From the NCBI GenBank assembly GCA_016845105.1, contig JAERTF010000091.1:1-47912 (forward strand): DNA of 47,912 nt, given 5' to 3'. The stretch is from Bacteroidota bacterium. Lineage in GTDB: Bacteria > Bacteroidota > Bacteroidia > Bacteroidales > F082. Under the pieces are notes generated by a model. It was not told the origin of the DNA, did not search any database, and was given only the letters and a program-made list of their open reading frames with translations. The translations under genes were made by a program, and so were the position numbers. Positions 19,735 to 47,102 of this stretch are shown here, in pieces (the first letter of the stretch is position 1; each line of letters starts with the position of its first letter).

Positions 19735-21966
19735 TTAAAAACTAAAACCTATATTAACAAAAAATGACACTTCTGGATTAAGATTTGAGCCCATTACGGT
19801 AAACTCTATTGGGCCAATAAAACTATTATATGCTGTAGTTACTCCATAACCAAACATAGTATTAGCTGGATCAACAGCATCGTTCAAATCAGACTCGGTA
19901 GCTCCAAAATCAGATCTGAGTGTAACATATATCTTTTGATATACATTGTACTGCAACTTTAATCTGGCAATACCTGAATAAAGTCCAAGCTTTTGCATAA
20001 AATGAACTCCGGTAAAAGGCACAAAACTTTTAATATAATTAATTTCATTTAAACCACCCGAACCAAACCAGTGTTGTATTGGTGGTTCATCCTGTTTCAA
20101 AGTGCCACCAATAAAAATACCAGGCTTAAGTGTTAGTTTTGGAGACAGACTAATATTATGATTAATTTTTACATACATAACCAGAGAATTCGTAAACACA
20201 GTATCAACCCACCCATTTGATAGTGGTATAGCATAAAGTGCCTTAAATTCAGCATCAGTCCCAGAAGTTGCATAATAGGGCTTATTTCTTGTATCTGCTC
20301 TAAAATTAACAAATACATTTCCATAACTTTTATACTCTGCAAAGTCAGTATAATCTGGATTTATTGCAATATCTTGTTTCATTTTAAAATACTCATACTC
20401 AACCCCGGCTCTAAAACTATATAAGTTATGCAGGTTTGATGTTACAAATAAAGATCCTTTAAGATTGGAAGCAGTTAGCGTATTTATTTTGATATCTTTA
20501 TCGTATTCTTTGAATGTAAAATTATACATATCAACTTCAGCTCCAAATCCTGGTTTTGCACCATTCGAAATCATATATAGTGCCCTAAACCTTGGATTAG
20601 TGCCCATTGTGAGTTCGGTGAATAGCTTACTTCTGTCGCCAAAAATATTCCTAAAAATGCCATTAACGCGAATACTACCATGGTAATCAAAATCATAATG
20701 AATTGAAGCACTTATATAGCCTGGAGACGCCTCTTCAAGATCAAGAATCAGGTTAGCCCTGCCATCCTTTGTTGGTTCCAGACTATAAAAAACATATTTA
20801 AAAAATCTTGTGCCATATACACTGGTTATTACATATTCCAACTCATCTATTGATATTCTAGAATTCTTAAAATCGCCAAAATAATTATCAAGATAAATCA
20901 ATGACATCTTATCATTGCCTCTATATATAACATTTGCAATGTCCAAAGAATCCAGAGGCTTTGTATTATACTCTTTGATTGGCACAAATTCAATGGCATT
21001 CAACGAATCTGCAAGAGCCTTTAATTCATCATAATGAGCCCTTGCAACGCTTTCACCATATGAAATGATTGTATCATATTTAGCAAAATCCATCATTCCG
21101 GCGGGCACCTTAAACTTAATGTTTATATTAATTAAGCTATCAGCTATTGTATTTGCCTCTTCAGCATGGAAGAAAACTATTTGATTAATAATATCAGTAA
21201 GGGATTTTAACTCAGAAATTGTATCCTTTAATCCAGATTGCACATCTCCTCCAACAAGAAATTGAGCACCAATCTGTCTTAGTGGACCAGCAGGATAATT
21301 ATTAACAATTCCACCATCTACAAGGTACATACCGTTGTAATGAGTAGGAGAAAAATATCCTGGTATTGACATGCTTGACCTCACCGCCATAGGCAAATAA
21401 CCTGTTCTTAAAACTTCTGCATTGCCATTAAATAAATTAGTACCAACGCATAGAAAGGGTGTTTGCAACTTATTGAAATCCGTAATATTCCAGGCCGGGG
21501 AAAAATACCTGTTCAATAGTAGATTTATCTGTTGCCCTTTGTACATCGACCTCTTTAACCCAACTTTACGCTTACTAAAAGGTAGTGAAACAATTGAGTG
21601 CTCAAGAAACTCCTTCTCTTCATAAGCAACATATTTACGGGGAATCTCATCCTTAAGCAGAGCATTCCAATTCTGGCTCTCAATCATTTTCTGTATTTCC
21701 TCTGGACTATACCCAATGGCATATAATCCTCCCATAATGCTACCAATACTTGTTCCACCAATGTAATCAACATGAAGACCTACTTCTTGAAAAACCTTTA
21801 ACATTCCAATGTAAGCAAACCCTTTAGCTCCTCCGCCACTAAGTACTAACCCTAACTTGGGGCGCTTCTTTTTTATTGGTTGATTAGGTTCTGCAAAAAG
21901 CACAGAAGAAAAAAGGGGTATTAATATCAGAATAGCTATACCTGAAATAGTGTACTTTTTTAACAT
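19735..21966 (-). CDS. Patatin-like phospholipase with C-terminal surface-antigen (D15-type) barrel
   Basis: A 743-residue outer-membrane-linked lipase. The signal sequence is followed by a patatin domain (about 36-235): oxyanion loop LVLSGGGAKGFAYIG (40-54), nucleophile elbow GTSIGS (Ser73) and the catalytic Asp in LVDGGIVNNYP (Asp217). About 340-420 is a POTRA-like stretch, and from about 425 to the end a 16-strand Omp85/D15-type barrel ending in the outer-membrane signal NIGFSF. This is the PlpD-type layout, where the barrel displays or anchors a lipase at the outer membrane. It is the first gene of a patatin-pyrH(-frr) operon with a -7 box 27 bases before the ATG. Likely substrate is phospholipid; its physiological role is not known. 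Confidence 0.93.
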   Translation of the reverse strand: MLKKYTISGIAILILIPLFSSVLFAEPNQPIKKKRPKLGLVLSGGGAKGFAYIGMLKVFQEVGLHVDYIGGTSIGSIMGGLYAIGYSPEEIQKMIESQNWNALLKDEIPRKYVAYEEKEFLEHSIVSLPFSKRKVGLKRSMYKGQQINLLLNRYFSPAWNITDFNKLQTPFLCVGTNLFNGNAEVLRTGYLPMAVRSSMSIPGYFSPTHYNGMYLVDGGIVNNYPAGPLRQIGAQFLVGGDVQSGLKDTISELKSLTDIINQIVFFHAEEANTIADSLININIKFKVPAGMMDFAKYDTIISYGESVARAHYDELKALADSLNAIEFVPIKEYNTKPLDSLDIANVIYRGNDKMSLIYLDNYFGDFKNSRISIDELEYVITSVYGTRFFKYVFYSLEPTKDGRANLILDLEEASPGYISASIHYDFDYHGSIRVNGIFRNIFGDRSKLFTELTMGTNPRFRALYMISNGAKPGFGAEVDMYNFTFKEYDKDIKINTLTASNLKGSLFVTSNLHNLYSFRAGVEYEYFKMKQDIAINPDYTDFAEYKSYGNVFVNFRADTRNKPYYATSGTDAEFKALYAIPLSNGWVDTVFTNSLVMYVKINHNISLSPKLTLKPGIFIGGTLKQDEPPIQHWFGSGGLNEINYIKSFVPFTGVHFMQKLGLYSGIARLKLQYNVYQKIYVTLRSDFGATESDLNDAVDPANTMFGYGVTTAYNSFIGPIEFTVMGSNLNPEVSFFVNIGFSF

Positions 21967-30623: not shown

Positions 30624-30662
30624 AAAAAATAACTACTTTTATACTCCAGTTTGAACGTGAAA

Positions 30663-32465
30663 ATGAAAAATTTGTTACTTCTATTTACCCTTTGCGTGCT
30701 TTCTACCAGTTTGGTAGCTCAGGTTATTCCTGATGAAAGAGTAGTAAATTGGTCATTGGTGAATCAAAACATGAGTTTTATTCAACCTACTCTACAAATA
30801 AATGTTATGGATTTTGGAGCTGTTGGTGATGGAGTTACAAACGATCAGCCTGCAATTATAAGTGCCATTTCAAGTCTAAACGGGCGATTGGGTTATGTAT
30901 ATTTCCCAGCAGGTGAATATTTAGTAGAGGATCCAATATCAATTCCTGACAGTTGCATACTAAAAGGTAGTGGCTCGAACGAAGTAACCCTGCTATTAGA
31001 TATGGGAATTAATTCGGTTAATTGCATTTCCATTTCGAGATCACAATCAACTGATTTTGTAACAATCTCAGGAGATTTAAGTAAAGGTAGCAATACAATT
31101 ACTATTGACAATACTGCTAATTTCGAGGTTGGAGACCATATTGAAATAAGACAAAAAAATGGAGACTGGGACATCGTTCCAATTTCATGGGCTGATTATT
31201 CCGTTGGTCAAATAACAAGAATTGTTGGCATCGAGGCAAACAACTTAATAATTGAGAGTGGCCTTCGAATGGATTATGATCAGGATCTTATTCCTGAAGT
31301 CAGACCAATTCAACCTATATCAAATGCTGGCATTCAATGCATTAAACTAGCACGAATTAATACTCCTGTAGATGGTGCCGGGTCCAACATCTACTTTAGC
31401 ATGGCAGCTAATTGTTTTATTCGTGGTGTTGAAAGTGATTATAGTGTTAGTGCCCACATTAGTGTAAACAGCAGTTTAAATATACTAGTAGATGGATGTT
31501 ATTTTCATGATGCGTTTGCATATGATGGCGTTGGAATGAGAGGGTATGGGGTTGCATTAAGTCACCATACAAGTGAGTGCTTAATAACAAATAATATATT
31601 CAGAAAACTGCGACATGCTATGATGATTAAAACAGGGTCGAACGGAAATATTTTCTCTTATAATTACTCTATTGAACCTCATCGGTCGGAACCAATTCCT
31701 GATGCTTCTGGTGATATTTCTTTTCACGGACACTATGCATTTTCAAATTTGTGGGAGGGTAATATTGTCCAAAATATAATAATAGATCATTATTGGGGAC
31801 CTTCAGGGCCATATAACACACTATTCAGAAATCATGCCGAACTTTATGGCATAATAATGACGACCAACGACTTGCTTGAAACAAGCACTCAAAATTTTGT
31901 TGGTAATGAAGTAACAGATACTCAATTTTTACATGGTATGTATACACTTACTGGTGAGGATCAATTTGAATACAGTAACAATGTAAAAGGAGATATTATT
32001 CCAATCGGTACTTCTATTCTCAACGACTCAAGTTACTATTTAAAGGATAAACCTACTTTCTGGGGACTCTTTACGCCATGGCCCTCTGTAGGTTACCCAA
32101 ACCAATTGGGAACAGGAACCATTCCTGCCAAACTAAGGTACCAATCAGGTAGTGATTTTACAATTTGCCCTGATAGTATTATTACACATTTTGACAATCA
32201 TCTGTCAATTGCTAGTTCGCAAATAGTTGTATGGCCTAACCCCGCCAATAATTTTTTAAAGATCGACCCTCCGGAAAATTGCTTGGAACTTTTCAATATA
32301 AAAATCACAAACTTGTTGGGAAATGTTGTCTACAAATATAGTAATGGCATTGGAGGAAACAAGACAATTACAATCCCTGTTGGAAATTTAAAATCTGGCA
32401 TATATGTATTGACCTATGTTACCAAATCAAAAGTATTCTCAAAAAAGATTGTAATATCACATTAA
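30663..32465 (+). CDS. Secreted pectate-lyase-superfamily (right-handed beta-helix) protein with T9SS type A sorting domain
   Basis: About 600 residues. The signal peptide ends SLVAQ (about residue 20). The segment INVMDFGAVGDGVTNDQPAIISAI (about 46-69) followed by GYVYFPAGEYLV and SILKGSG-type strands is the start of the pectate lyase 3/GH28-like beta-helix domain, which runs to about 450. The last 75 residues (VVWPNPANNF, LKSGIYVLTY, FSKKIVISH) are a T9SS type A sorting domain. The protein should be exported through T9SS. A polysaccharide lyase or hydrolase acting on acidic glycans is possible, but I cannot name catalytic residues or the substrate. The start at 30663 is the ATG giving a clean signal peptide. 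The downstream PLP enzyme gene starts 3 bases after the stop. Confidence 0.87.
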   Translation: MKNLLLLFTLCVLSTSLVAQVIPDERVVNWSLVNQNMSFIQPTLQINVMDFGAVGDGVTNDQPAIISAISSLNGRLGYVYFPAGEYLVEDPISIPDSCILKGSGSNEVTLLLDMGINSVNCISISRSQSTDFVTISGDLSKGSNTITIDNTANFEVGDHIEIRQKNGDWDIVPISWADYSVGQITRIVGIEANNLIIESGLRMDYDQDLIPEVRPIQPISNAGIQCIKLARINTPVDGAGSNIYFSMAANCFIRGVESDYSVSAHISVNSSLNILVDGCYFHDAFAYDGVGMRGYGVALSHHTSECLITNNIFRKLRHAMMIKTGSNGNIFSYNYSIEPHRSEPIPDASGDISFHGHYAFSNLWEGNIVQNIIIDHYWGPSGPYNTLFRNHAELYGIIMTTNDLLETSTQNFVGNEVTDTQFLHGMYTLTGEDQFEYSNNVKGDIIPIGTSILNDSSYYLKDKPTFWGLFTPWPSVGYPNQLGTGTIPAKLRYQSGSDFTICPDSIITHFDNHLSIASSQIVVWPNPANNFLKIDPPENCLELFNIKITNLLGNVVYKYSNGIGGNKTITIPVGNLKSGIYVLTYVTKSKVFSKKIVISH

Positions 32466-32468
32466 ATC

Positions 32469-33533
32469 ATGCAGATTACAAAACCTACTCTAGTAATTGA
32501 TAAGCAAAAGGTGCAAGCAAATATTAACCGGATGCTGAAAAAAACAGAAAACACAAGTGTAGTATTCCGGCCACATTTCAAAACTCATCAACTGGCCGAA
32601 ATTGGCGAACTATATAAAAAATCTGGTGTAGTTAGTATTACTGTTTCATCGGTATCCATGGCAAAATATTTTGCAAATCAAGGGTGGACAGATATTACTA
32701 TTGCATTCCCTCTAAATATCCTTGAGTTGGATGAAATTAATAGGATTGCTAAGGATATCAGGATAAACTTATTGGTTGAATCCACTATTACTACATCAAA
32801 ACTCTTGGATAGAATATCATACCCAGTCGGAATATTTATTAAAATAGACACTGGATATAATAGAACAGGACTAGAAATTAATGATGCTGAAATTGATAGA
32901 ATAATAGTACTAATTAAAGGTAATAAAAACTGTTCATTCAAAGGATTTTTATCTCATGCAGGTCACACATATAGTATCAGGGGAAAAAATGACATCTTGC
33001 AAATCATGGAATTCAGCAAAATAACTCTCAATGAACTAAAACAAAAATATATTTCTGACTTTCCAGATATTATAGTTTCATATGGTGATACACCTTCATG
33101 TAGCATGGCAGATGGATTTGATGGATTTGATGAAATTCGTCCCGGTAATTTTGTTTATTATGATATTATGCAGTATCACATTGGCTCATGTACACTTGAT
33201 GATATTGCTGTGGTTGTGGCATGCCCGGTGGTGGCAACGCATAGTTCGAGAAACGAAATTATAATTTATGGCGGTGGTGTTCACCTTTCCAAAGAGTTTA
33301 TTTCAGCGGATAATAATTTTAAACTTTTTGGATATGTTGTAAAAATGACAAAAACTGGATGGAGTGAGCCAATTCCAGGCACTTATGTATCATCACTATC
33401 ACAAGAACATGGAATTATTAAAACAACCGACAGTGGTTTAAAGACAATTAACCCCGGAGATGTAATTGGAATAATACCAATACATTCATGTTTAGCAGCC
33501 AACTTGCTTAAAGATAGTTTTCAGATAATATAA
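32469..33533 (+). CDS. PLP-dependent D-serine dehydratase / D-threonine aldolase family enzyme
   Basis: A 354-residue cytosolic fold type III (alanine-racemase-like) enzyme. The PLP Schiff-base Lys is in FRPHFKTHQ (Lys38). The barrel continues with KIDTGYNRTGLE and FLSHAGHTY, and SYGDTPS carries the usual PLP-phosphate loop. Near the end IPIHSCLAAN shows the His339-x-Cys341 metal site of the DSD1/D-threonine aldolase group, in which a Zn or Mn ion helps C-O or C-C cleavage of D-beta-hydroxy amino acids. D-serine deamination to pyruvate or D-threonine cleavage to glycine are the likely reactions; the sequence does not decide between them. It starts 3 bases after the pectate-lyase-like gene, an odd operon partner. 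Confidence 0.88.
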   Translation: MQITKPTLVIDKQKVQANINRMLKKTENTSVVFRPHFKTHQLAEIGELYKKSGVVSITVSSVSMAKYFANQGWTDITIAFPLNILELDEINRIAKDIRINLLVESTITTSKLLDRISYPVGIFIKIDTGYNRTGLEINDAEIDRIIVLIKGNKNCSFKGFLSHAGHTYSIRGKNDILQIMEFSKITLNELKQKYISDFPDIIVSYGDTPSCSMADGFDGFDEIRPGNFVYYDIMQYHIGSCTLDDIAVVVACPVVATHSSRNEIIIYGGGVHLSKEFISADNNFKLFGYVVKMTKTGWSEPIPGTYVSSLSQEHGIIKTTDSGLKTINPGDVIGIIPIHSCLAANLLKDSFQII

Positions 33534-35252: not shown

Positions 35253-38231
35253 TTAATGCTTAGGTTTTAATACCATTCCTAAGTTTTTCTTTCCATCAAT
35301 TTTTATAGTTAGATTCTCATTGAATCTAACATGACGTACAAATTCATTTTCGAATATTGCTGGTTGCTTATCCAAAAAGTCGATATCATATAAACCTTCT
35401 CCTATAAAGGGGTTAATTGTAAAATACCCAACACGAAAAGAGGTAAGGTTTTGAAAAAAATGAGTTCCCTGACTCGGATCTATACGATAGTTTTCAAGGC
35501 CCGATTCTACAATAACCCTTGCAGCAGATATTTGTGACCAGTTTACAGGAATACCAAGCCAGGGATCACTTGAACCCCACCTACCGGGACCAACCAGTAT
35601 ATAATTAATATCCTCTTCGATAAATATCTTGTTTAAGGCATCAATATAATCAACAATTTCACTTGTTTTTGATGCATCAAATGATTGTGGTCTAACATAT
35701 ACAATGTCATAAATATTATCAATAATTCCGTTACCTAGTGCTGATTGTGACACTATCACAGCATCAGAATTATCTAGTTCATCTTCATCAATTACGACAC
35801 TCTCATCCTTTGATGCCACAGGCCTTATTTGCAACAACTTAAAGGATACCTTTTCTCCTTTCGGAATATTTAAATCCAATGCAAATTCAATTTCAACCGG
35901 ATTTCCCATTTCCTCCTCCCCAAGTTTTAGTACCCTATCGATGATTTCAGCCAATGGTAATGTATTGTGCTTAAGAATATTTGAGAACGTTATCAGTTTT
36001 TTACCCTTATAATTATACCCATCCCGTATAACATTATCATGCATAATAAATGTTGATGCAATGCCACGGATTGAGTTATCTTTTTCTGCCTCTTTAATTC
36101 GAAGTTTTAGCAAACTAGCTCCATCATTTGGTTTAATAATATAGTCATGGCTGCTTAAATCCAAGGCAAAGAAGTGTTTCTGGGTTTCCTGGAGGGCCAT
36201 TTCAGGATTAGAAGTTTGGAGAACATTTTTTGGGTAACGTGGACAAAACCTTAATGATTGACCTCCATCAACAACATATTTACCCAATCCCATTGCTAAG
36301 CTAACGGTTCCATCTTCAGGTATGGCAGGTTCCAGAGGATAATAATCAATGGATCTGCCAACTCCCGATATTGTTGGATAATAACGATCACCATATGTAC
36401 TACCTACAACCTCCTGAATAACAATTGCCATTTTTTCCTCATCAATAACATTTGATGTTGCTTGCATATAAGCTTTACTATCAGCATAATACGCTGATGC
36501 ATAAACTGCCTTAATTGCATTTCGCATCATATTAAACATAACCTCATGATCACCTTCCCGAAACGGAAGCATATAAGTATTATAAATACCAGCAAAGGGC
36601 TGATAATGTGAATCTTCAAGCAAACTAGATGATCGAATCGCCAGGGGGGTTTCAATTGAACTTGCTATTTTATAAATATCATCGTTGGCATGCTCAGGAA
36701 AATCGGCTTTTAAAAAACGTTCCAATATTTCCTCATCACTAAGCTCATCCGATAAAGCAATTGAGTGGAGCTTATTTTGATCCATAAACTCATCAAAAAT
36801 ATCTGTACCTATCACTACAGTTTTGGGAATTGAAATTTCGACATTATTAAAATAAGTATATAGGTTATTTCGCTTAATCAACGAATCTAAGAATGCCAAA
36901 CCCCTTGCTTTACCCCCAATTGATCCCTGGCCAATTCGAGTAATACTAAAATACTTATCAAAAGTATTTCGATTAAATGATGATATCACTCCTCTGGCCT
37001 TTGAAATCCTAAACTGTGATATTGCATTGTAAATAAATGACCTAACTTCGTTAATATCTTCAAAATCATCACTCTTGAAATAGCGAAACAACTCTGCCAA
37101 GGGGAATAATGCCCTAGCTCTTAACCATTTGGAGAAATGATTCCTTTGAATATGATAACGCAGTGAATTTGATGGCAGCGAAAAAATTTTGTCTTGTAAA
37201 TCCTTAAGATCGGCTGCTCTGGCAACAGTTATACCCATTATTGGATCTTTAAAAATAAAATCACCAAATGCAAAATATTCCTTAATGAATTCCCTAAGAT
37301 TAAATGTTAGTGTTTTTGAATTTTTGTCAAGAAAACCAACCCTGAGTTCTTTGGCCTTTTTAAAGTTTTTTTGTTCGGATGATTGTAACAATAGTGGAGT
37401 GTAAGGATTATCACGTTTGATAATTGCACACAGATCAATTCCTGCATTCTTGTCTATTACTCCATTTCTGGGATATGAAATATCTGAAATTAGGCCGAGG
37501 AGGTTTTTTTTGTATTTCATGTAAAACCCATATGCATCTTCATAATTTGTGGCAAGTAGTATCTTAGGTCTACCTCTCATCCTCATCATTCTTTGATGCT
37601 CATTAAGTCCCTCATTAACAAATGATTCTGATTGTTTAAAAATGATTTTATACATTATTGGAAGATAACTGGAATAGAACCTAATATTATCTTCCACTAG
37701 TATGATTGTTTGAACCCCTACTTCCTCAACATCATTATCCACATTCATTTTATCCTCAATAAGCTTGATAATAGCAAGAAGGATATCAGCATTTCCTAGC
37801 CAACTAAATATATAATCTATCGACCTTAATTCTATTTTCTCTATCTTTAAACTAACTTCCCTTGAAAAAGGAGTTAGCATAACTATAGGAATATCAGGGT
37901 ATTCATTCTTAATATGGTCAGTAAACTCAAAGGTTGTTTCCTTTTCAGCACTAAGCATTGATATTACTAAATCAATTTTTTCACTTTCCAAAATCGTCAA
38001 AGCCTCCTCTTCATTTGTTGCTTTTAAAAATTGTGGTGGGTATCGAAGATTTAGGGATGTATATTCATGAAATATCTGCTCATCAATTCTACCATCCTCT
38101 TCAAGCATAAAAGCATCATAAACACTCGAAACAAGCAAAACCTGATAGATCCGCTTTTTCATTAGGTTAATGAATGGCGTTTCATTGAAATAAAAATTCT
38201 GACTTAATACATCTGCTTTAGAAGAAAACAT
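35253..38231 (-). CDS. PEP/pyruvate-binding ATP-grasp protein with two receiver-like N-terminal domains
   Basis: 992 residues from an ATG at 38231; the TTG upstream is rejected. Residues about 27-160 look like a degenerate receiver: the phosphoacceptor position in IDLVISML is not Asp. Residues about 174-325 form a second receiver with an insertion that keeps the key residues: acidic pair Glu180-Asp181, Asp250 (LISDIS), Ser284/285 and Lys303. A linker of about 110 residues follows, then the PPDK/PEP-synthase-type ATP-grasp (about 430-810: IGGKARG, LAIRSSSLLED at 531-541, MAIVIQEVVG, EIEFAL, LLQIRP). The C-terminal module contains GPGRWGSSDPW (881-891) and QGTHFF (921-926). No phosphohistidine swivel domain or PEP-barrel is present, so it should not be called PEP synthase. 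Its neighbour is a histidine kinase, a plausible phosphodonor. Reaction unknown. Confidence 0.82.
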   Translation of the reverse strand: MFSSKADVLSQNFYFNETPFINLMKKRIYQVLLVSSVYDAFMLEEDGRIDEQIFHEYTSLNLRYPPQFLKATNEEEALTILESEKIDLVISMLSAEKETTFEFTDHIKNEYPDIPIVMLTPFSREVSLKIEKIELRSIDYIFSWLGNADILLAIIKLIEDKMNVDNDVEEVGVQTIILVEDNIRFYSSYLPIMYKIIFKQSESFVNEGLNEHQRMMRMRGRPKILLATNYEDAYGFYMKYKKNLLGLISDISYPRNGVIDKNAGIDLCAIIKRDNPYTPLLLQSSEQKNFKKAKELRVGFLDKNSKTLTFNLREFIKEYFAFGDFIFKDPIMGITVARAADLKDLQDKIFSLPSNSLRYHIQRNHFSKWLRARALFPLAELFRYFKSDDFEDINEVRSFIYNAISQFRISKARGVISSFNRNTFDKYFSITRIGQGSIGGKARGLAFLDSLIKRNNLYTYFNNVEISIPKTVVIGTDIFDEFMDQNKLHSIALSDELSDEEILERFLKADFPEHANDDIYKIASSIETPLAIRSSSLLEDSHYQPFAGIYNTYMLPFREGDHEVMFNMMRNAIKAVYASAYYADSKAYMQATSNVIDEEKMAIVIQEVVGSTYGDRYYPTISGVGRSIDYYPLEPAIPEDGTVSLAMGLGKYVVDGGQSLRFCPRYPKNVLQTSNPEMALQETQKHFFALDLSSHDYIIKPNDGASLLKLRIKEAEKDNSIRGIASTFIMHDNVIRDGYNYKGKKLITFSNILKHNTLPLAEIIDRVLKLGEEEMGNPVEIEFALDLNIPKGEKVSFKLLQIRPVASKDESVVIDEDELDNSDAVIVSQSALGNGIIDNIYDIVYVRPQSFDASKTSEIVDYIDALNKIFIEEDINYILVGPGRWGSSDPWLGIPVNWSQISAARVIVESGLENYRIDPSQGTHFFQNLTSFRVGYFTINPFIGEGLYDIDFLDKQPAIFENEFVRHVRFNENLTIKIDGKKNLGMVLKPKH

Positions 38232-38274
38232 TATATAGCTAATTTGTTTTATATTAAACCTTATCAAGAATTAG

Positions 38275-38282
38275 CAAAAATA
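38275..38282 (-). promoter_or_regulatory. -7 box (TATTTTTG) of the receiver/ATP-grasp gene
   Basis: Minus-strand TATTTTTG, exact match, in the 112-base gap between the histidine kinase gene and the ATP-grasp gene, 43 bases before the ATG at 38231. It would let this gene be expressed independently of the kinase. Confidence 0.45.
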
Positions 38283-38343
38283 ACTTTGATTTATCACTAT
38301 TTAAGCTTGTGGAAATATAAATTAGGAAATAATCATGTATATA

Positions 38344-41190
38344 TTATGAATGAACGCTTATGGGTAGTAAGATGCTAAAATCTGTACCCTCTCCTATTTC
38401 ACTTTCAATGGATATACTACCTTTATTATTTTTTACAAATTCATTTACAATAACCAATCCAAACCCTGTCCCCTTTTCATTGTCAGTTCCTCTTTTCCTT
38501 TCTTTACTTGCCTTTCCTGATAATACATTATTTATTTGCTCCCAAGTCATGCCTACTCCAGTGTCAGATATACGAATTTCAGCCATCTTATTGATTTTAG
38601 TTATGCTGATTTTAATTACACTTTTCTTATGCGAAAATTTAATCGCATTTGATACTATATTACGAATTACAATATCTATTTGATTTTTATCGGCCAATAC
38701 ATTAATTGGCTCATCAGCTACAATTATAAGATCAATTAACTTTCTTTGCGCTTGATCTGACAATAGTTCAACAACTAGACTGATTACGTCATTTAATAAT
38801 ATGTTTTCAAAATTTGGTTTAAGACTATTCTGCTGAATTCTAGCCCAAGAAAGCAAGTTTTCGATTAGTGAATATGTAGAATCAAGTGATGGTTTAAGTG
38901 AAGTTATAAGTGTAACTATTTCTTCATGTGACAATTCATCAACCTGCCCCACTATTAAATCAACAATGGACTTATTTGTTCCAATTGGACCAATTAAATC
39001 ATGTGCAATTATGGAAAAAATTTTCTCTTTTGCTGCATTCGATTCTCTTAATTCTCTTTGTGATTTTCTTAGTTTACGCTGACTTTTTACCCTACCACTA
39101 ATATCATGCAATACACCCATTATACCTATTGGTTCACTATTGGTATCATATACTAATTCAGCTGTAAATGAGCAATGAATTATTCCCCCATCCTTTTTTT
39201 TGAATTTAGTATCATGATCATTAATAGACTCATTATTCTCAATACGAGCTGCAATTTTTTTCCAATCGTGGATAAAATGATAATATTCTTTCGAACTCAC
39301 ACCAATAACTTCTTCACGAGTATAACCTGTAATCTTGTATATAGATGGGCTTACATCAGTTATAACACCTTTGGTATCTAATTGAAAATAAACATCGGGA
39401 AATGCTGCAAATAACTGGCGAAATTTTAATTCGCTTTTTCTAATTATTTCCTCATTTCTTTTTCTTTGAGTAATATCCCAAAAGTTAACAACTATTCCAT
39501 TTATTAGTTTATCATCAAGTAGATTCTGTCCATATGCATAAACCGAAATCCACTCACCATAAGCATTTTGCATCCTAAAATCAATATTGCGAGGTTTTCC
39601 GTCAATTATCAAATTATTAAACTCATGTTTAACATGCTCTATATCTTGAGGATGGATAAATTCAAATGCACTTTTATTAATTCTACTCAATATTTCTCTT
39701 CCTATCCTTCTTTCATAACTAGGGCTAATATATTTTGTCAATCCATCCTTACCTACTACAAAAATAAAGTCCTCGGACCTATCCAAAAGTTTCTCATAAT
39801 ATTCATTTTGCTTTCGCGCTAACCTTCTGGATCGACGCATGACAACATTATAAAATATCATCGAGAGTATAATTATAGATATCACAAGAATTATAATATA
39901 CAAGAGGGTTCGTATTTGGGAATCGCTCGTATGTTTCCTTCGAAGTGTATTTAATTCGTTATTCTTTTTTTTATCGATGTATTTAGCTGAAATTTCTTGA
40001 ATTTGTTGAATTTTATTCTTTGAAAGAATACTGTCATGAATACTGTGATATTTCTCAAAATAATAATATGCATCTTTGTAATTTTCTGCAGCAAAGTAAA
40101 TCTTATTCAATAGTTTGTAACAATTTAACAATTGCTCATTTGAACCTTTTTGCATGGCAACCTCAAGTGCTTCCAAGGTAAAATTTAATGCCTTATCAAT
40201 ATTGCCAACTCTTAGGTAATGTTCTCCTAAATTTGATAATGCCAAGGATACAACCTGGGAGTTAATGGGCCGGCCTACATCTAAAGATTTCTGATAAAAG
40301 CTCAAAGCCAATACCGTATCATTTAAATCTTTATATGTATCACCAATATTATTAAGACTAATTGCTATCCCATCTTCATCTTGTAAATCGCGATCAATTT
40401 CCAATGACCGGTTAAAATAACCTAGTGCTTTTTGAAAGTTCTTTTGAGAACTATATATATCACCAATATTATTTAAACAAACTGAAACCCCTTCTTTATC
40501 ATCTAAGGTTTCACAAATCTCGAGTGCTCTACTAGTATAATTAAAGGCATCAATAAAATTGTTTTCACTTGAAAACACAATACCTAAATTTATTAATGCC
40601 GAACTAATACCACTACTGTCTCCCATCAACTCAAATTGGGTTAATGCCTTTATTGTTGATGATGTTGATTCATCATAAATTCCCATCTCCTCGTAACACG
40701 AGCCAAGTAGCAGATTAAATTGAGCAGAACTAACTTTATCATTTATTGAATCAGAAATTAATAAACCTAATTTTAGATACTTAATAGCATCAGTATTTCT
40801 GTACATTTCTGCATAACAACTACTTATATATTCATATGTTTCAATTAGATCAATGGTTTCATTATTTCGCAAATAGATATCTAAGGATGAATTAAAAAAA
40901 TACAAAGCTGTATCATAAGACGATATATTGTAATAGATTACTCCTTTTGTAAAATCAACTTCGGCAGTACAATTATTACAGTTCAGTTCCTTGGAAACAG
41001 AATCTGCTGTTGAAACTAATCTCAAACTTTCATTGTAATCAGGAAAACATACAATTGCAGAATCGCATAATTTAAATACTTCTATGGAATCCTGATCTTG
41101 TGCCTTAACATTTAATATGTTTATTTCAAACACTAGGATCCAAAATACAATTGATATAAACAAATTGATATATCTAAACGAAAATAACAT
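38344..41190 (-). CDS. TPR-containing sensor histidine kinase with two PAS domains
   Basis: 948 residues from the ATG at 41190. An N-terminal signal/anchor helix (about 5-30) leads to a periplasmic array of TPR repeats (about 60-400; for example LNNIGDIYSSQKNFQKALGYFNRSLEI). A transmembrane helix (about 426-449) follows, then PAS1 (about 465-577), PAS2 (about 588-700), a HisKA-type dimerisation helix with FSIIAHDLIGPIG (phospho-acceptor His730) and a HATPase with N-box RNIVSNAIKFS, G1 DTGVGM and G2 GTGFGLVIVNEF. It has no receiver of its own, and no ordinary response regulator is coded nearby. The only receiver-like domains within reach are in the downstream ATP-grasp protein. The TPRs may sense a peptide or protein in the periplasm. 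A -7 box lies 29 bases upstream. Confidence 0.93.
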   Translation of the reverse strand: MLFSFRYINLFISIVFWILVFEINILNVKAQDQDSIEVFKLCDSAIVCFPDYNESLRLVSTADSVSKELNCNNCTAEVDFTKGVIYYNISSYDTALYFFNSSLDIYLRNNETIDLIETYEYISSCYAEMYRNTDAIKYLKLGLLISDSINDKVSSAQFNLLLGSCYEEMGIYDESTSSTIKALTQFELMGDSSGISSALINLGIVFSSENNFIDAFNYTSRALEICETLDDKEGVSVCLNNIGDIYSSQKNFQKALGYFNRSLEIDRDLQDEDGIAISLNNIGDTYKDLNDTVLALSFYQKSLDVGRPINSQVVSLALSNLGEHYLRVGNIDKALNFTLEALEVAMQKGSNEQLLNCYKLLNKIYFAAENYKDAYYYFEKYHSIHDSILSKNKIQQIQEISAKYIDKKKNNELNTLRRKHTSDSQIRTLLYIIILVISIIILSMIFYNVVMRRSRRLARKQNEYYEKLLDRSEDFIFVVGKDGLTKYISPSYERRIGREILSRINKSAFEFIHPQDIEHVKHEFNNLIIDGKPRNIDFRMQNAYGEWISVYAYGQNLLDDKLINGIVVNFWDITQRKRNEEIIRKSELKFRQLFAAFPDVYFQLDTKGVITDVSPSIYKITGYTREEVIGVSSKEYYHFIHDWKKIAARIENNESINDHDTKFKKKDGGIIHCSFTAELVYDTNSEPIGIMGVLHDISGRVKSQRKLRKSQRELRESNAAKEKIFSIIAHDLIGPIGTNKSIVDLIVGQVDELSHEEIVTLITSLKPSLDSTYSLIENLLSWARIQQNSLKPNFENILLNDVISLVVELLSDQAQRKLIDLIIVADEPINVLADKNQIDIVIRNIVSNAIKFSHKKSVIKISITKINKMAEIRISDTGVGMTWEQINNVLSGKASKERKRGTDNEKGTGFGLVIVNEFVKNNKGSISIESEIGEGTDFSILLPISVHS

Positions 41191-41219
41191 CAACAAAACT
41201 TAATATGGTATTTAAAGTA

Positions 41220-41227
41220 CAAATCTA
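41220..41227 (-). promoter_or_regulatory. -7 box (TAGATTTG) of the TPR-PAS histidine kinase gene
   Basis: Minus-strand TAGATTTG, exact TAnnTTTG match, 29 bases before the ATG at 41190. A TTG at 41244-41246 (complement) lies 16 bases upstream, shorter than the usual spacing. Confidence 0.45.
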
Positions 41228-41297
41228 TTAAAATTATGCTATTCAAGAAAGATAAAATGAATCAAAATACTTATAGTTAAGCTATTTAGAATACTCC

Positions 41298-44030
41298 TTA
41301 AACATCACATATATGACCTATTGCAAATTCTCTTTCGGCATTCATATAAACATCAAAAGATTTATTTTCGCTCTTAAGATTTATTACTTTTATTACTTTT
41401 TCTAAGTCTCTCATCTCGGGTAATAAACTCACAAGTGAATTATTTGAACTATTGAAAAATTCACTTTTAAAAATTGTATTCTGACCATCTGGATAAAGAG
41501 GAAGGTATTTAATATCAGCTTCAACAAGATCTTGAAAAAAATGTGTACCAAATGAAAGATCCGGAACATAATCACCACTCTGTTTGGCTATCTCAATTAA
41601 CATAGAGGTATTGTTAATTTCAGAATATGTTATGCTAACCCCCAATTTTATATCTCCCCTACTTCCCCATCTACCGGGACCCATTAAAATAAACTTTGTG
41701 TCAGAAAGTAAATCGTTAAGTTTACCAATCGCAATACCCACATTTAAAAGTGATTGCTGATTAGGTAATTTGGCATACTCATTTGGGTCAACATAAATAA
41801 TATGAGTTATCCCGGTGATCGTACCATTTGAAATAAATTTATTGGCCGAAAATACTATCGAATCAGGATCAATATTCTCAGGGATTTTTGCGGGTTCGAT
41901 ATGCGACCCATAACTTTGTGAACGACATTGAAGCAAATAAAAATCTTTACCATTATGAGCAAACTCAATATCAACAGGTCCATCGTATGTATTTTGTAGT
42001 ATTTCTAATGTCGCTTTTATTTCCTTCAAAAAAGAAGTCCTTTTAACTAGTCCTTCGAAATTGACAACAAAATTACTTTTCGAGAAATTAATTCCAAACG
42101 GTCGTGCAGGTTGAATATGGTTCTCCTTTAGTACAGATACTACCCTACTCAATGCAGGATATTCTTTCCCATATCTTTTAAGAAGTGAATCTATTTCGAT
42201 TGTTTCAAAAGTACCCGATTCAAGATTTATTACATCTATAAATTTTGGCGAATACTTAACCAACTCATCAATGGTTACATTAACTCGTAACCCTGGTTTA
42301 CCGGGAGATAAAAGTATGGGGTAATCATTACTCAACCTATCAACAGCTCTTGTTCCTAATCCTGGCACTATACGAATAAGTCCGTCTTCAGGAAGTATAC
42401 GCGGCGACCACCTATATTCGTTTCTACTAAAAGCAACACCCGCAAAAGAAGGGAAAAAATATGGACCAACTTTTGTACCTACAACCTCCTGAATCATTAT
42501 GCCCATTTCTTCACGATAATCCAGTAAATTATTTTGAGCTCTGTAATTAATTGGATCGGGACCAAAAATGGAAGCATAAACTTCGGCAATTGCATCCATT
42601 AGTTCAAGTAACCGCTCTTCTTTTGTACCTTTATTGGCAATGAACAAACTTTTATATTTTCCAGCAAATACGGCTCCAACCCTATCTTCAAGCAAGCTTG
42701 AACTTCGAACAACAAGTGGAACATCGCCAAAATCCTCAAGTGCCATCAAAAGCCCCTTTACAATTTCAGGGGAAAAAGATGAATTTTTAAAGACTTGTAA
42801 TACATATGGATATTCTTGTCTAACTCTTCCTATTTCCTTATATTTTTGCTCTACAATTTCCTCCAGATTATTGTATGTCATAAAATTCAGTAATCCATCC
42901 GAGGTAACATACCATGTATTTGGAGTTTTAATCTTTTGAAAGAATGGATTGTCATTTTTTGAAGAGGATAATATCTGTTTAGCCAAAAATAACCCGGAAC
43001 TCTTACCACCTATTTGACCATGACTAACTGTAGGGTAAATAATATTATGAAGTAGATTACTAAAACTATCAACTTCAATAACTTTTTTAGCAATATTAAT
43101 GAAATCAGGCTGATCTGTCAATATCCTTCTAATAAGAGCTACTCTAATGCTTTTCTCACGCGACTCCGTCAGCTCCAGCATATTTGGAATTAAATGATGA
43201 TAGCGCTCAATAGCAGAACTAATTTTTGCCAAAGTAGAACCTGAGTTCTCCATCACTTCTGTTAAAAAATCTGACTTATCCTCTTTTGTCCATCTATGTA
43301 TTGAGTCAAGTATTTTCTTCTCATCAATGTGATTACTAGCAACTTCAAATATCTCATAAGAAAGCTCGATCATATCAACCCCGCTGTGTCTATCGAAGGG
43401 TTTATTGGTTTCTGAAAATAGTTTACCACCATCACTTTTTACCATCGGACTAAACCTCTCGAGTAATCCATCAGCTTCTGATATTCCTGACCAGCATAAA
43501 TAATTAACCATTTTCCGTGAAAGACGTACAAGAAGCTTAGGGTCGGTATGCTTGAGCATATCCAATACTGCCCACCAGTCTTCGCGTTGATCAGGCTTTT
43601 TTTGCTCCTCAAAAATTGATTTTAATTGTTGATGAAGTATCTGAAGACCAACTCTTTCAGCTATATTATCAATTAATCGTCGCTCTTCTTTTAAAAATGG
43701 GCCTTCGTCGGCCATTGGTCTTTCTTCTAAATAATACACCTGAATGTGCCCAACTATCTCATCTTGAGCAAGTATATCAGATTTAAGAACCCATTTTGAT
43801 TCAATGAAATTATCCGAATGATAATTATTCTTGAATCCACAGATCTTAACAACACAAATATCAGGAAATTGAAATCCAGTAGGTATTGATTTAATAATTC
43901 CTTTCCAAACTTCATCATTTATCGAGGTTGTTCTATTTAATAATTCTTGAATATCATAAAGGCAACTAAGCTCTTTTGCTCTTTCTTTAAGTTCAACAAT
44001 TATTTTATCCAACGGCTTATTATCACTCAT
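41298..44030 (-). CDS. PEP/pyruvate-binding ATP-grasp protein with kinase-type GAF-like sensor domain
   Basis: 910 residues. The first 135 match a sensor module known from histidine kinases: KELSCLYDIQEL (19-30), IIKSIPTGFQFPDICVVKI (about 45-63), GHIQVYYLEERP, then DEGPFLKEERRLIDNIAERVG (108-128). Next is a helical region (about 140-330) without a known domain, then the ATP-grasp core (about 338-705: QIGGKSSGLFLAK at 339-351, VVRSSSLLED at 440-449, MIQEVVG, DIEFAH, LLQCRSQ). The C-terminal module has GPGRWGSRG (784-792) and SFGTHFFQD (826-834). It lacks the phosphohistidine and PEP-barrel domains of PEP synthase and has no HATPase, so the sensor seems to drive the ATP-grasp domain instead of a kinase. 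It lies 6 bases behind the shorter paralogue, surely in one operon with it. Confidence 0.82.
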   Translation of the reverse strand: MSDNKPLDKIIVELKERAKELSCLYDIQELLNRTTSINDEVWKGIIKSIPTGFQFPDICVVKICGFKNNYHSDNFIESKWVLKSDILAQDEIVGHIQVYYLEERPMADEGPFLKEERRLIDNIAERVGLQILHQQLKSIFEEQKKPDQREDWWAVLDMLKHTDPKLLVRLSRKMVNYLCWSGISEADGLLERFSPMVKSDGGKLFSETNKPFDRHSGVDMIELSYEIFEVASNHIDEKKILDSIHRWTKEDKSDFLTEVMENSGSTLAKISSAIERYHHLIPNMLELTESREKSIRVALIRRILTDQPDFINIAKKVIEVDSFSNLLHNIIYPTVSHGQIGGKSSGLFLAKQILSSSKNDNPFFQKIKTPNTWYVTSDGLLNFMTYNNLEEIVEQKYKEIGRVRQEYPYVLQVFKNSSFSPEIVKGLLMALEDFGDVPLVVRSSSLLEDRVGAVFAGKYKSLFIANKGTKEERLLELMDAIAEVYASIFGPDPINYRAQNNLLDYREEMGIMIQEVVGTKVGPYFFPSFAGVAFSRNEYRWSPRILPEDGLIRIVPGLGTRAVDRLSNDYPILLSPGKPGLRVNVTIDELVKYSPKFIDVINLESGTFETIEIDSLLKRYGKEYPALSRVVSVLKENHIQPARPFGINFSKSNFVVNFEGLVKRTSFLKEIKATLEILQNTYDGPVDIEFAHNGKDFYLLQCRSQSYGSHIEPAKIPENIDPDSIVFSANKFISNGTITGITHIIYVDPNEYAKLPNQQSLLNVGIAIGKLNDLLSDTKFILMGPGRWGSRGDIKLGVSITYSEINNTSMLIEIAKQSGDYVPDLSFGTHFFQDLVEADIKYLPLYPDGQNTIFKSEFFNSSNNSLVSLLPEMRDLEKVIKVINLKSENKSFDVYMNAEREFAIGHICDV

Positions 44031-44036
44031 TAGTTA

Positions 44037-45767
44037 TTAAGATTTACTTATTAATCCACAACCACTTTTTCCATCTACCTTAACCTCAACTGGTAATTCA
44101 AGCTTAACATGTCGGATTAAATTAGTTTCAAAAATAGTTGCAAGTCCCGCTAACCAATCCCAATCAACTGGAAACTCTCCTGAATATGGAATCGAAAAGT
44201 ACTTAACTCCAAACCCGGTTACATTATGAAAAAAATGCGAGCCCTGACTCAATTCTGAATTCATTCCTTCAAGCGGTGCTTCAACAATAACTTTTGCACC
44301 AGATATTTGACCCCAATTAACTGGAATCCCGGCCCATGGATCAGAAGTACCCCATCGTCCAAATCCAATTAATAGATATGGTTTTCCTTCACTAACTAAC
44401 TTACGATTTACAATCTCTAATTCTCCAGCAATTTTATAAGTAATTGAAGCATCAAAGGCATTTGATTTTAAATATACGATATCTAATATATTCGAAGTAA
44501 CACCATTTCCAAGTACAAGAGGAGATGAACATAACAAAGAAGTATTTTTCAATTCTTCCTTCGAAACCTGTACATCTTCACTTGAAACAACCATAGGTCG
44601 AACTTGCAAAAAGCCTAACCTATGTGGTTTATCATTGTGAAATGTCATTGCAAATTCAATTTCGACAGGATCTCCGACTGACTCTTCACATACCTTTAGT
44701 ATTTCAGAAACAAAATCAACCAAGGGAATATCATGAAGTTTTAAGATTGGTGCAAAAGTTAATACTCTTGGGCCTGTTTTACCTACTCCTGTTATAATTC
44801 TGCCAGATCTTGAGTCTAAAGTTGATGCAACATATTTCAATGTTCTATCCTCATCGGCAACAGAAATATTTTGATTAGTTAAATACTCAGCTTCATTAAT
44901 TGGATCATAGGAAGGTGGACTACCCATATTAACTGACCAAAATGAGTTTTGAGTATTTTTCATCATATCTGATATTCCTCCAAATGGAGGTTCAGATCTA
45001 GGATATTTTGGAGAGAAAGACCATGATAAACCGCCATCTACAATTGTTTTACCCAATCCCAAGGCCAAACTAACTGTCCCATCTTCAGGGTCAGCATTTC
45101 CAAAAGCATAGTAATTATAAGAACGCCCAACACCTGATAATTCAGGATAATATCTTGTATCATGTCGTTGGCCTATTACCTCCTGAATTATAACAGCCAT
45201 CTTTTCATCTTCGGTGTTATGCTTGGTAGCTCTCATATAATCCTTTGCGGCTTTAAAATATGTAGAAGCATAAACAAACTTAATACCTTCAACTAACTTG
45301 TTGAATCTGGTAGTTGTGTCAGGTTGATTATTTGGAGTCATCTTTGTACCATAAATACCAGCAAATGGCTCATGTTGAGAATCTTCCAAAATACTTGATG
45401 AACGTATTGCCAATGGTATATTTACTTGTGATATAAGTGATCTCAGATCACCTAGTATCTCAAATGGTAAACTTGCCTGTTGGAATGCATGTGCAATTCT
45501 TTCATCCGACGTTTCAGAAAGAGCAATTTCGTAAAGATTATTCCTCTTCATAAATGCATCAAACACGTCCGAACGAATTACAGTCATTGAAGGAATATCA
45601 AGCATAATGCCCTTGAAGTCATTATAATTAATTTTATCCCTAAGTACATCATTTATATCAATGAGTCCAGTGGCTTTACCACCATAGGAACCTGTTCCAA
45701 TACATGTAATTCGTTTTTCAGAATTTAAAAAACTACTTCTATTAAATGCAACTATATTTTTTTTCAT
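44037..45767 (-). CDS. Stand-alone PEP/pyruvate-binding ATP-grasp protein (core only)
   Basis: 576 residues, the minimal form of the family in this window. The core begins almost at once: GTGSYGGKATGLIDI (25-39), LAIRSSSILEDSQHEPFAGIYG (119-140), MAVIIQEVIGQ (190-200), EDGTVSLALGLGKTIVDGG (228-246), PVEIEFAM (367-374) and GFLQVRP (385-391). The C-terminal module has FGRWGTSDPWAGIPVNWGQISGA (469-491) and SQGSHFFHN (507-515), nearly identical in pattern to the receiver-linked paralogue, so these two are the closest pair. No phosphohistidine domain. It follows glutamate dehydrogenase by 21 bases and precedes the sensor-bearing paralogue by 6, so the three genes form an operon. Biochemical role unknown. 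Confidence 0.82.
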   Translation of the reverse strand: MKKNIVAFNRSSFLNSEKRITCIGTGSYGGKATGLIDINDVLRDKINYNDFKGIMLDIPSMTVIRSDVFDAFMKRNNLYEIALSETSDERIAHAFQQASLPFEILGDLRSLISQVNIPLAIRSSSILEDSQHEPFAGIYGTKMTPNNQPDTTTRFNKLVEGIKFVYASTYFKAAKDYMRATKHNTEDEKMAVIIQEVIGQRHDTRYYPELSGVGRSYNYYAFGNADPEDGTVSLALGLGKTIVDGGLSWSFSPKYPRSEPPFGGISDMMKNTQNSFWSVNMGSPPSYDPINEAEYLTNQNISVADEDRTLKYVASTLDSRSGRIITGVGKTGPRVLTFAPILKLHDIPLVDFVSEILKVCEESVGDPVEIEFAMTFHNDKPHRLGFLQVRPMVVSSEDVQVSKEELKNTSLLCSSPLVLGNGVTSNILDIVYLKSNAFDASITYKIAGELEIVNRKLVSEGKPYLLIGFGRWGTSDPWAGIPVNWGQISGAKVIVEAPLEGMNSELSQGSHFFHNVTGFGVKYFSIPYSGEFPVDWDWLAGLATIFETNLIRHVKLELPVEVKVDGKSGCGLISKS

Positions 45768-45788: not shown

Positions 45789-47075
45789 CTATACCCAACC
45801 TCTATCGTGACATGCATTGGCTACCCTATCTATGGAAATTACATATGCAGCATCTCTTAATTTTAATCCATTTTCTGTTGCAAAGTCACTTACCGCGATA
45901 TATGCTGATGTCATTTTTACGTCTAATTTACTCAACACTTCATCTTTCTCCCAGTAATAATTCATATTACTTTGAACCTGCTCAAAATAGCTACAAGTTA
46001 CACCACCAGCACTGGCTAGAAAATCGGGAATTAGAAATATATTTCTTTCTTCAATTATTTCAGATGCCTCCGGTGTGGTAGGACCATTTGCTCCTTCGGC
46101 TAAGATTTTTACTCTACTACTAATACCATCAACATTGTCAATGGTAATTTGATTTTCAATGGCAGCTGGAATAAGAATGTCGACATCTTGCTCCAGCCAT
46201 GCATTTCCATCAAGGATATCGTAACCAAGGTCAGCAGCCTTTTGTTTATCAATTCCTCCAAACGTATCTGTAATTGACCTAAGTTCATCAAGATCAATTC
46301 CTTCATCTTTTTTAAATGAATAGCTCTTTTGTTCGTTATAATCCCATGATGAAACACAAACTACTTTTCCTCCCATTTGAATATATAGTTCAAATGCATA
46401 TTGGGAAACTCTTCCAAAACCCTGTAAGCTTGCGATAGTATCTGCTGGGTTGATATCTAGCTCCTTAAGGGCCTCTCTAATTGTTATAACAACTCCATAT
46501 CCAGTAGCTTCTTCGCGCCCTAGAGAACCGCCCATTCCAACTGGTTTTCCTGTAAATGCTCCTGGTGATTTAACTCCTGAGATAACTTCATATTCATCAA
46601 GCATCCAAAGCATATGCTGCGCCTTAGTCATAATATCAGGTGCGGGAATATCAAGTTTAGGTCCAATACTAGCATAAGCTTGCCTAACCCACCCACGACA
46701 TAAACGTTCTTGTTCATCATCACTTAAGTTGTGGGGGTCGCATATAACTCCACCTTTTCCACCACCAAGGGGAAGATCAGCTACTGCTGTTTTCCAGGTC
46801 ATCCACATAGCCAAAGCCCTAACTGAATCAACGGTTTCTTGTGGGTGAAACCGTAATCCACCTTTTATTGGTCCCCGCGCATTATTGTGTTGAATCCTAT
46901 ATCCTTTAAAGATTTTGGTTGAGCCATCATCTAATTTAACAGGAATCAAGAAATGATGCTCATGTATTGGATTTCGGAGTAATTCCTGAGTGGCTTGATC
47001 GAGATCAAGCATTTCGGCAGCACGATCAAATTGTTTCTGTGCTACTTCAAATGGATTATACGAATTGCTTTTCAT
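45789..47075 (-). CDS. Glutamate dehydrogenase (Glu/Leu/Phe/Val dehydrogenase family)
   Basis: Interconverts glutamate and 2-oxoglutarate plus ammonium with NAD(P). 428 residues from the ATG at 47075, close to the 420-430 of the hexameric RocG/GudB type. Substrate and catalytic residues are visible in GPIKGGLRFHP (68-78), TWKTAVADLPLGGGKGGV (93-110, catalytic and substrate Lys) and IPAPDIMT (143-150, catalytic Asp). The dinucleotide Rossmann domain starts near 225 with LQGFGRVSQYA, and ASAGGVTCSYFEQVQ is the conserved closing motif. A GTG 18 bases upstream is a less likely start. It is the first gene of the set that continues into two PEP-binding proteins. The choice of cofactor cannot be read safely, and leucine dehydrogenase activity is less likely given the SYFE motif. 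Confidence 0.93.
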   Translation of the reverse strand: MKSNSYNPFEVAQKQFDRAAEMLDLDQATQELLRNPIHEHHFLIPVKLDDGSTKIFKGYRIQHNNARGPIKGGLRFHPQETVDSVRALAMWMTWKTAVADLPLGGGKGGVICDPHNLSDDEQERLCRGWVRQAYASIGPKLDIPAPDIMTKAQHMLWMLDEYEVISGVKSPGAFTGKPVGMGGSLGREEATGYGVVITIREALKELDINPADTIASLQGFGRVSQYAFELYIQMGGKVVCVSSWDYNEQKSYSFKKDEGIDLDELRSITDTFGGIDKQKAADLGYDILDGNAWLEQDVDILIPAAIENQITIDNVDGISSRVKILAEGANGPTTPEASEIIEERNIFLIPDFLASAGGVTCSYFEQVQSNMNYYWEKDEVLSKLDVKMTSAYIAVSDFATENGLKLRDAAYVISIDRVANACHDRGWV

Positions 47076-47102
47076 GTTCAGATAATATAACACACTGTTT
47101 TA

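Follow-up and report, generated by a model that had tools for sequence, protein, structure and literature searches.

We describe a run of genes on the minus strand of a 47,912-nucleotide stretch of DNA (hereafter the window; contig JAERTF010000091.1, positions 1 to 47,912 of the forward strand, assembly GCA_016845105.1) from a Bacteroidota bacterium of the F082 lineage of Bacteroidales, in which a glutamate dehydrogenase gene (gdh) stands ahead of three paralogous proteins that carry an ATP-grasp domain of the type found in pyruvate phosphate dikinase (PPDK) and phosphoenolpyruvate (PEP) synthase, followed by a C-terminal module with the motifs GRWG and HFF. The three are termed P4, P3 and P1 (576, 910 and 1004 amino acids), and a receiver-bearing paralogue type related to the P1-type is termed C-type. 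An earlier note had described positions 35253 to 45767 as three divergent PEP/pyruvate-binding paralogues; the span holds four minus-strand genes, including a sensor histidine kinase, and gdh precedes them as the first gene of the run (Table 1). Along the run from gdh through P4, P3 and the histidine kinase to P1 the intergenic gaps are 21, 6, 101 and 76 bp, short enough to make a single transcript plausible.

Table 1. Genes, domains and key residues of the gdh-P4-P3-histidine kinase-P1 run, in window positions.
Feature	Positions	Strand	Remarks
glutamate dehydrogenase (gdh)	45789..47093	-	PF00208 219.1 bits, PF02812 174.4 bits; first gene of the conserved unit
P4, 576 aa	44037..45767	-	ATP-grasp and GRWG/HFF module only; PF01326 122.5 bits
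P4 ATP-grasp (PPDK_N) domain	44550..45686	-	K31, R122, E371, Q388, R390 invariant in A3
P4 GRWG motif, residues 470-473	44349..44360	-	G470, R471, G473 invariant, W472 in at least 90% of A3
P4 His511 of GSHFF	44235..44237	-	invariant in A3; candidate catalytic or phospho-acceptor residue
P3, 910 aa	41298..44030	-	N-terminal domain shared with histidine kinases, helical linker, ATP-grasp, GRWG/HFF module; PF01326 181.8 bits
P3 ATP-grasp (PPDK_N) domain	41874..43016	-	K343, R442, E689, Q701, R703 invariant in A4
P3 His830 of GTHFF	41541..41543	-	invariant in A4
TPR-PAS-PAS sensor histidine kinase	38344..41196	-	between P3 and P1; Pfam TPR, PAS and HATPase_c matches
P1, 1004 aa	35253..38267	-	pseudo-receiver, receiver, ATP-grasp, GRWG/HFF module; PF00072 38.2 bits, PF01326 145.4 bits
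P1 Asp262, phospho-acceptor of second receiver	37482..37484	-	receiver assigned by motifs; Asp in 53/53 P1-type and C-type rows
P1 ATP-grasp (PPDK_N) domain	35793..36923	-	PF01326 match
P1 His936 of GTHFF	35460..35462	-	invariant, conservation taken from A3

All three proteins match PF01326, the PPDK_N ATP-grasp family, far above its cut-off of 27 bits. The three paralogues of the earlier note therefore stand as same-strand open reading frames, and their label "PEP/pyruvate-binding" is a misnomer, since the shared PF01326 binds AMP/ATP and the domain that binds PEP, PF02896, is missing. Neither PF02896 nor the mobile (swivelling) domain PF00391 was found in P1, P3 or P4 by a Pfam scan at E values up to 10, where the HMMER filters discard most weak matches, while the same scan recovers these two domains together with PF01326 in the PPDK of this genome. 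This agrees with the earlier observation that the three proteins show no phosphohistidine domain and no PEP barrel. Without a PEP-binding domain these proteins cannot carry out the complete reaction of PPDK or PEP synthase, as had been proposed, and for the same reason the alternative idea of a PEP-binding regulator is not supported. The genome encodes six PF01326 proteins in total: P1, P3, P4, a fourth paralogue of 1133 amino acids located elsewhere with both GRWG and HFF (L004), the true PPDK (L001), and L006. This last one, not to be confused with the true PPDK, is a PPDK-like protein of 1383 amino acids (G000:C41:40550-41962) that contains a GGATSHAAV motif. L004 (G000:C63, locus L197) has a receiver-like part under its Pfam cut-off and adjoins a gene that by eye is response-regulator-like; its contig also has part of a glutamate dehydrogenase at its edge.

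Conservation was read from two alignments of relatives. A3 has 64 rows (54 P4 and eight P1 genes of the loci described below and two window proteins) that were not chosen by motif, and A4 has 58 rows (57 of 62 suitable P3 genes and the window) that were partly selected, as one of two scan patterns covered WGS[RK]GDIK. The five ATP-grasp residues given for P4 and for P3 in Table 1 are invariant in these alignments. A set of 53 rows of the receiver-bearing P1- and C-types likewise shows no variation at four of the core positions (GGK Lys, RSS Arg, IEF Glu and LQ Gln), and the Arg that follows LQx is replaced by Lys in 12 of these rows. By position, the core residues correspond to ATP-grasp residues of PPDK that mutants have shown to be important; structures of the K22A and R337A mutants are among the Foldseek matches of the P4 model. 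In the C-terminal module, H511-F512-F513 of P4 are invariant in A3 together with the two Gly and the Arg of GRWG, and GTHFF is invariant in A4, as is GPGRWGS, though the latter was partly selected by the scan pattern. All three residues of HFF thus stay unchanged in both alignments, which extends to homologues the conservation that the earlier note had pointed out for the three proteins; a further alignment, A5, and the 53-row set were selected on HFF or GRWG, and HFF conservation was therefore taken from A3 and A4 only. The other motifs quoted in that note are likewise present and conserved with small variants, for example FLQVR in P4.

Invariant ATP-grasp residues combined with invariant HFF residues lead us to expect catalysis and not mere binding, so that P1, P3 and P4 are more likely active enzymes than bare binding proteins, and the invariance of the ATP-grasp catalytic residues makes the earlier suggestion that they act on a different target a probable one. 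Non-catalytic sensors of ATP or AMP that bind glutamate dehydrogenase and regulate it allosterically would retain both a conserved ATP site and the gdh linkage, but the constancy of the active-site Gln and Glu, and of a His in a further domain, argues for chemistry, and we regard such sensors as rather improbable.

The nature of the GRWG/HFF module is a separate question. It has no credible Pfam match: 61 modules gave matches to ten families, none in more than two members and the best at E 0.03, and PF00391 was listed for none of the 61. A search of solved structures by module sequence gave no hit with E under 0.07, and its top entries, a synaptobrevin-like protein and plasmepsin, look like chance matches. 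One explanation, compatible with the regulatory role proposed below, is that these proteins are derived relatives of PEP synthase in which the module is a much-changed swivelling domain, the HFF His is the old phospho-His, and an acceptor is phosphorylated by swivelling. The AlphaFold model of P4 (pLDDT 89.9, pTM 0.89) finds rifampin phosphotransferase 5hv1 as its best Foldseek match (E 1.4e-13), yet the alignments to six rifampin phosphotransferase and HpeI entries cover 382-424 columns, in contrast to 584 columns on PEP synthase and 631-696 on 11 PPDK entries (all 12 with E up to 0.001). These lengths give only a hint that the module is being matched as if to the swivelling domain where that domain directly follows the ATP-grasp domain, as the Foldseek output comes without alignment ranges and the PPDK ATP-grasp domain carries an insert that lengthens such alignments. 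A profile of the combined cores matches PEP synthase with 99.1% probability (E 3.9e-19, on a template of only four sequences) and extends some 20 residues beyond the ATP-grasp domain, as does the P1 profile taken singly, and by eye the succession of helices and strands in the P4 model fits a swivelling domain. On the other hand, the P4 and P3 profiles stop at the end of the PEP synthase ATP-grasp domain, the module by itself is not matched to the swivelling domain (probability 0.1-0.7%), and a forced, low-confidence alignment pairs GGRTCH of PEP synthase with GRWG and not with HFF. The model of a full-length P3 from a relative (L092; pLDDT 82.7, pTM 0.65) also aligns over only 401 columns on PEP synthase, with 628-869 on PPDK, and the profile test with a PPDK template is a weak one, even the full P4 alignment having matched it at only 3.4%. 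We keep descent of the module from a swivelling domain as a possible explanation, somewhat less likely than not.

Sensory domains are attached to two of the three proteins. P1 has two receiver-like domains, with PF00072 (cut-off 30.2 bits) matched over two stretches. The best of these, residues 81-154, is the first receiver, which lacks an Asp at the phospho-acceptor position (a pseudo-receiver) and shows no Asp among the common residues at the equivalent place in the 53 rows. The second receiver, recognised by its motifs, carries the phospho-acceptor Asp262 and also Glu192 in 53 of 53 rows and Asp193 in 52. The C-type receiver scores under its Pfam cut-off. P3 carries at its N-terminus a domain without a Pfam match that recurs in other proteins, of which all four fetched regions resemble sensor histidine kinases by eye, and in P4 no sensor domain was found. 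The histidine kinase that adjoins P1 could be the kinase that acts on the P1 receiver; among 18 other loci it is common to two genomes of the same genus (cluster c12, three loci including the window). The receivers, the P3 domain, the histidine kinase, gdh and the fourth paralogue had all escaped the earlier note, whose observation on the core of the three proteins stands.

The neighbourhood of these genes points to glutamate dehydrogenase. A scan with the P3 alignment over one genome per species (84,980 species) gave at least 495 confirmed relatives, and the best 80 loci were analysed, P3 being called in 76 (all except L123, L146, L149 and L165). P3-type loci occur in 14 named phyla, including Bacteroidota, Calditrichota, Ignavibacteriota, Acidobacteriota and Planctomycetota. 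A contiguous same-strand gdh-P4-P3 order is present in 45 of the 80 loci from 10 named phyla, and gdh lies directly upstream of P4 or P3 in 54 loci from 11 named phyla. P4 and P3 are direct neighbours in 58 loci with a median gap of -4 bp, that is, an overlap. Where at least 3.5 kb of sequence is available upstream of P3 (60 loci), gdh of the window type (>50% identity) was found in 56 and directly upstream of P4 or P3 in 48. Gene order can persist in related lineages by descent only and without function, and loci of the same phylum are not independent of each other; a contiguous order in 10 named phyla, with a second paralogue adjoining another type of glutamate dehydrogenase, makes this account very improbable.

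That second paralogue is the P1-type. Twenty P1 loci were picked from the hit list blind to their neighbours, from 19 genomes that all belong to the window's own phylum and are not independent, with only G206 in the window's own class. In 16 of the 20 a different, NADP-type glutamate dehydrogenase stands beside the P1-type gene, in 15 as its directly upstream same-strand neighbour, and in L172, L174, L177 and L185 no glutamate dehydrogenase was found beside it. Family names of these dehydrogenases were checked for L127, L199 and L181; the one in L127 is of NADP-type with 753 bits to NF006929 (cut-off 536). Four P1-type loci contain two glutamate dehydrogenase/P1 pairs each, in several, P1 is followed by another glutamate dehydrogenase that is nearest to the archaeal type (L181, NF040817 at 556 bits, under the cut-off of 750), and in some a histidine kinase and a NarL/GacA-type regulator are interposed. 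The window's own genome has only three glutamate dehydrogenase genes over the cut-off, one of them a contig-edge fragment. The presence of two paralogue types beside two types of glutamate dehydrogenase is the strongest pointer to function that we have.

The main rival to a regulatory role takes the ATP-grasp proteins as metabolic enzymes, which would activate glutamate or 2-oxoglutarate in an unrecognised reaction under the control of their sensory domains. ATP-grasp enzymes often activate carboxylates, and the operon is shared with a metabolic enzyme. In addition, tandem C-type and P1-type genes are accompanied in four loci of the window's own order (L199, L200, L201 and L203) by NADP-type glutamate dehydrogenase and by subunits of 2-oxoacid:ferredoxin oxidoreductase (names checked in L199 only), a gene set centred on 2-oxoacids. 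Signalling-type domains on P1, P3 and the C-type, a nucleotidyltransferase (NT) domain fused to P3 in most relatives, and different types of glutamate dehydrogenase that each adjoin a paralogue all speak against it, and we consider it unlikely, though a serious competitor.

The NT domain forms the end of full-length P3, about 1060 amino acids long, in 68 of 76 relatives as found by similarity. L092, the only relative checked by Pfam, matches the small NT family PF01909 at 31.6 bits (cut-off 21), and G963, S964, D975 and D977 of the NT motif GS...DxD are kept in at least 90% of A4. The best fold matches of the NT part of the L092 model are mostly of MNT-type, led by 8xeh_E (E 0.03, probability 1.00), with 8xeh_E, 8xeo_B and 7ae9_G spanning E 0.03-0.11; the MntA antitoxin model NF047752 gave 20.9 bits, under its cut-off of 60. 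Many P3 loci also encode a metallophosphoesterase (in the L092 locus PF00149 at 40 bits, cut-off 21.5), on the opposite strand in 36 of 38 cases. PADLOC reported nothing for P1, P3 and P4, and weak model matches for the NT and the phosphoesterase in a relative.

Joint occurrence of the two was counted in 54 of the 76 loci, leaving out those in which P3 is cut by the contig or less than 1.2 kb lies downstream. The phosphoesterase is present in 31 of 48 NT-bearing loci and in none of six loci with a complete P3 without NT (Fisher p 0.004, kinship ignored). A tree of 70 P3 rows including the window, without L132 and other cut P3 genes, requires six changes of the NT, most simply losses, and over five independent pairs the phosphoesterase follows the NT in 4.2 on average and never the opposite way. 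In whole genomes, no such phosphoesterase was found in G000, G001, G003, G005, G007 and G050, which have the short type of P3 (five of them are one genus and some are incomplete), and it was found in G004, G018, G021, G023, G057 and G173, whose P3 proteins have 1055-1063 amino acids. This co-occurrence in loci and genomes suggests that NT and phosphoesterase probably work together and that the window's lineage discarded both: the window P3, at 910 amino acids, has no PF01909 match, and several relatives likewise have neither NT nor phosphoesterase.

Taking these observations together, we propose, with a confidence that we would put at about even, that the ATP-grasp proteins are signal-controlled enzymes whose role is to modify the neighbouring glutamate dehydrogenase covalently and so regulate it, where the partner is suggested by gene linkage and the chemistry by conserved residues. 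The sensory part, namely the P1 receiver or the histidine-kinase-type domain of P3, would control an active PPDK-type ATP-grasp domain, which would pass a phosphate of ATP through the GRWG/HFF module, probably via the invariant His, onto a partner. This partner would most likely be glutamate dehydrogenase, whose activity would be set in this way, with control presumably running from the ATP-grasp proteins to the dehydrogenase, and the sensorless P4 may be the catalytic partner of P3. NT and metallophosphoesterase of most relatives could form an add/remove pair for nucleotidylation, an arm that the lineage of the window would have given up while retaining the ATP-grasp arm. With gdh linkage, a receiver input and the NT of the relatives, this is a more specific hypothesis than that of the earlier note.

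Several points weigh against this proposal. Linkage alone also fits a metabolic role, nearly all named loci are metagenome assemblies so that single phylum labels may be wrong, and the window P1 itself is 7.5 kb away from gdh. Within the window's own order, a glutamate dehydrogenase was found in only seven of 20 P1- and C-type loci (a set to which several genomes contribute two loci each and the window's own genome one), and the four 2-oxoacid loci mentioned above are among these seven. On the nucleotidylation side, a phosphoesterase is missing from 17 of the 48 NT-bearing loci, the joint loss is not significant once corrected by the tree (the same five pairs, median p 0.125), and as the window has neither gene this arm cannot act there.

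A wider version is more tentative still and in our view less likely than not. It would see here a general control system of glutamate dehydrogenase, P3-type in 14 named phyla and with gdh directly upstream in 11, in which each type of the dehydrogenase has its own ATP-grasp partner and two-component or metabolite signals are turned into reversible covalent modification, by phosphate through the GRWG/HFF module and by nucleotide through the MNT-like domain, with removal by the metallophosphoesterase.

Carbon and nitrogen metabolism meet at glutamate dehydrogenase, and a dedicated covalent control of the bacterial enzyme is little known. If the proposal is true, it would provide a glutamate dehydrogenase counterpart to the GlnE/GlnD control of glutamine synthetase, as well as a testable control mechanism with a receiver as input in one type and an NT in another across many phyla. 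The gdh partnership in many phyla suggests an undescribed on/off switch for this nitrogen enzyme. Many family members are annotated only as PEP synthase-like or PEP/pyruvate-binding, and the proposal would explain this large set of proteins and reveal a response regulator with an ATP-grasp enzyme as its output. Among the papers listed in searches of a PubMed Central subset, none treats this ATP-grasp/gdh family; two passages of PMC10364804 concern SelO neighbourhoods and are irrelevant to the family.

Elsewhere in the window, a pectate-lyase-like protein with a type IX secretion (T9SS) tail ends 3 bp before a protein of the D-serine dehydratase/alanine racemase fold (30651-33533), an odd pair. 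A patatin phospholipase fused to an Omp85 barrel lies at 19735-21966, and an outer-membrane protein of the LpxR family (163.7 bits) at 31-1290.

Among known systems, PEP synthase and PPDK share with P1, P3 and P4 an ATP-grasp domain with the same conserved residues, as the core profile match of 99.1% to PEP synthase reflects, whereas the window proteins have no PEP-binding or recognisable swivelling domain, have gained sensors in P1 and P3, and are linked to gdh. Rifampin phosphotransferase (RPH) provides the best structural match of the P4 model, but its whole-protein model NF041857 (cut-off 999 bits) reaches only 13-27.1 bits, from the ATP-grasp part, and the His domain (PF00391) is not recognisable in the window proteins. 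From the domain order of RPH, no rifampin-binding domain would be expected in them either. The MNT adenylyltransferase antitoxins of HEPN-MNT systems resemble the C-terminal fold of the full-length P3 relative, which stays under the MntA cut-off and carries the domain as a fusion. The P1 receiver has the acidic pair and the phospho-Asp of two-component response regulators; its output, in contrast to theirs, is an ATP-grasp enzyme and not DNA binding, and an extra pseudo-receiver stands in front. Regulators of the GlnE/GlnD type transfer nucleotidyl groups in nitrogen assimilation, and the idea shared with them is that of acting on an ammonia-assimilating enzyme. The NT of the P3 relatives differs in being small, MNT-like and fused to an ATP-grasp sensor protein; it is absent from the window P3, and its target remains putative.

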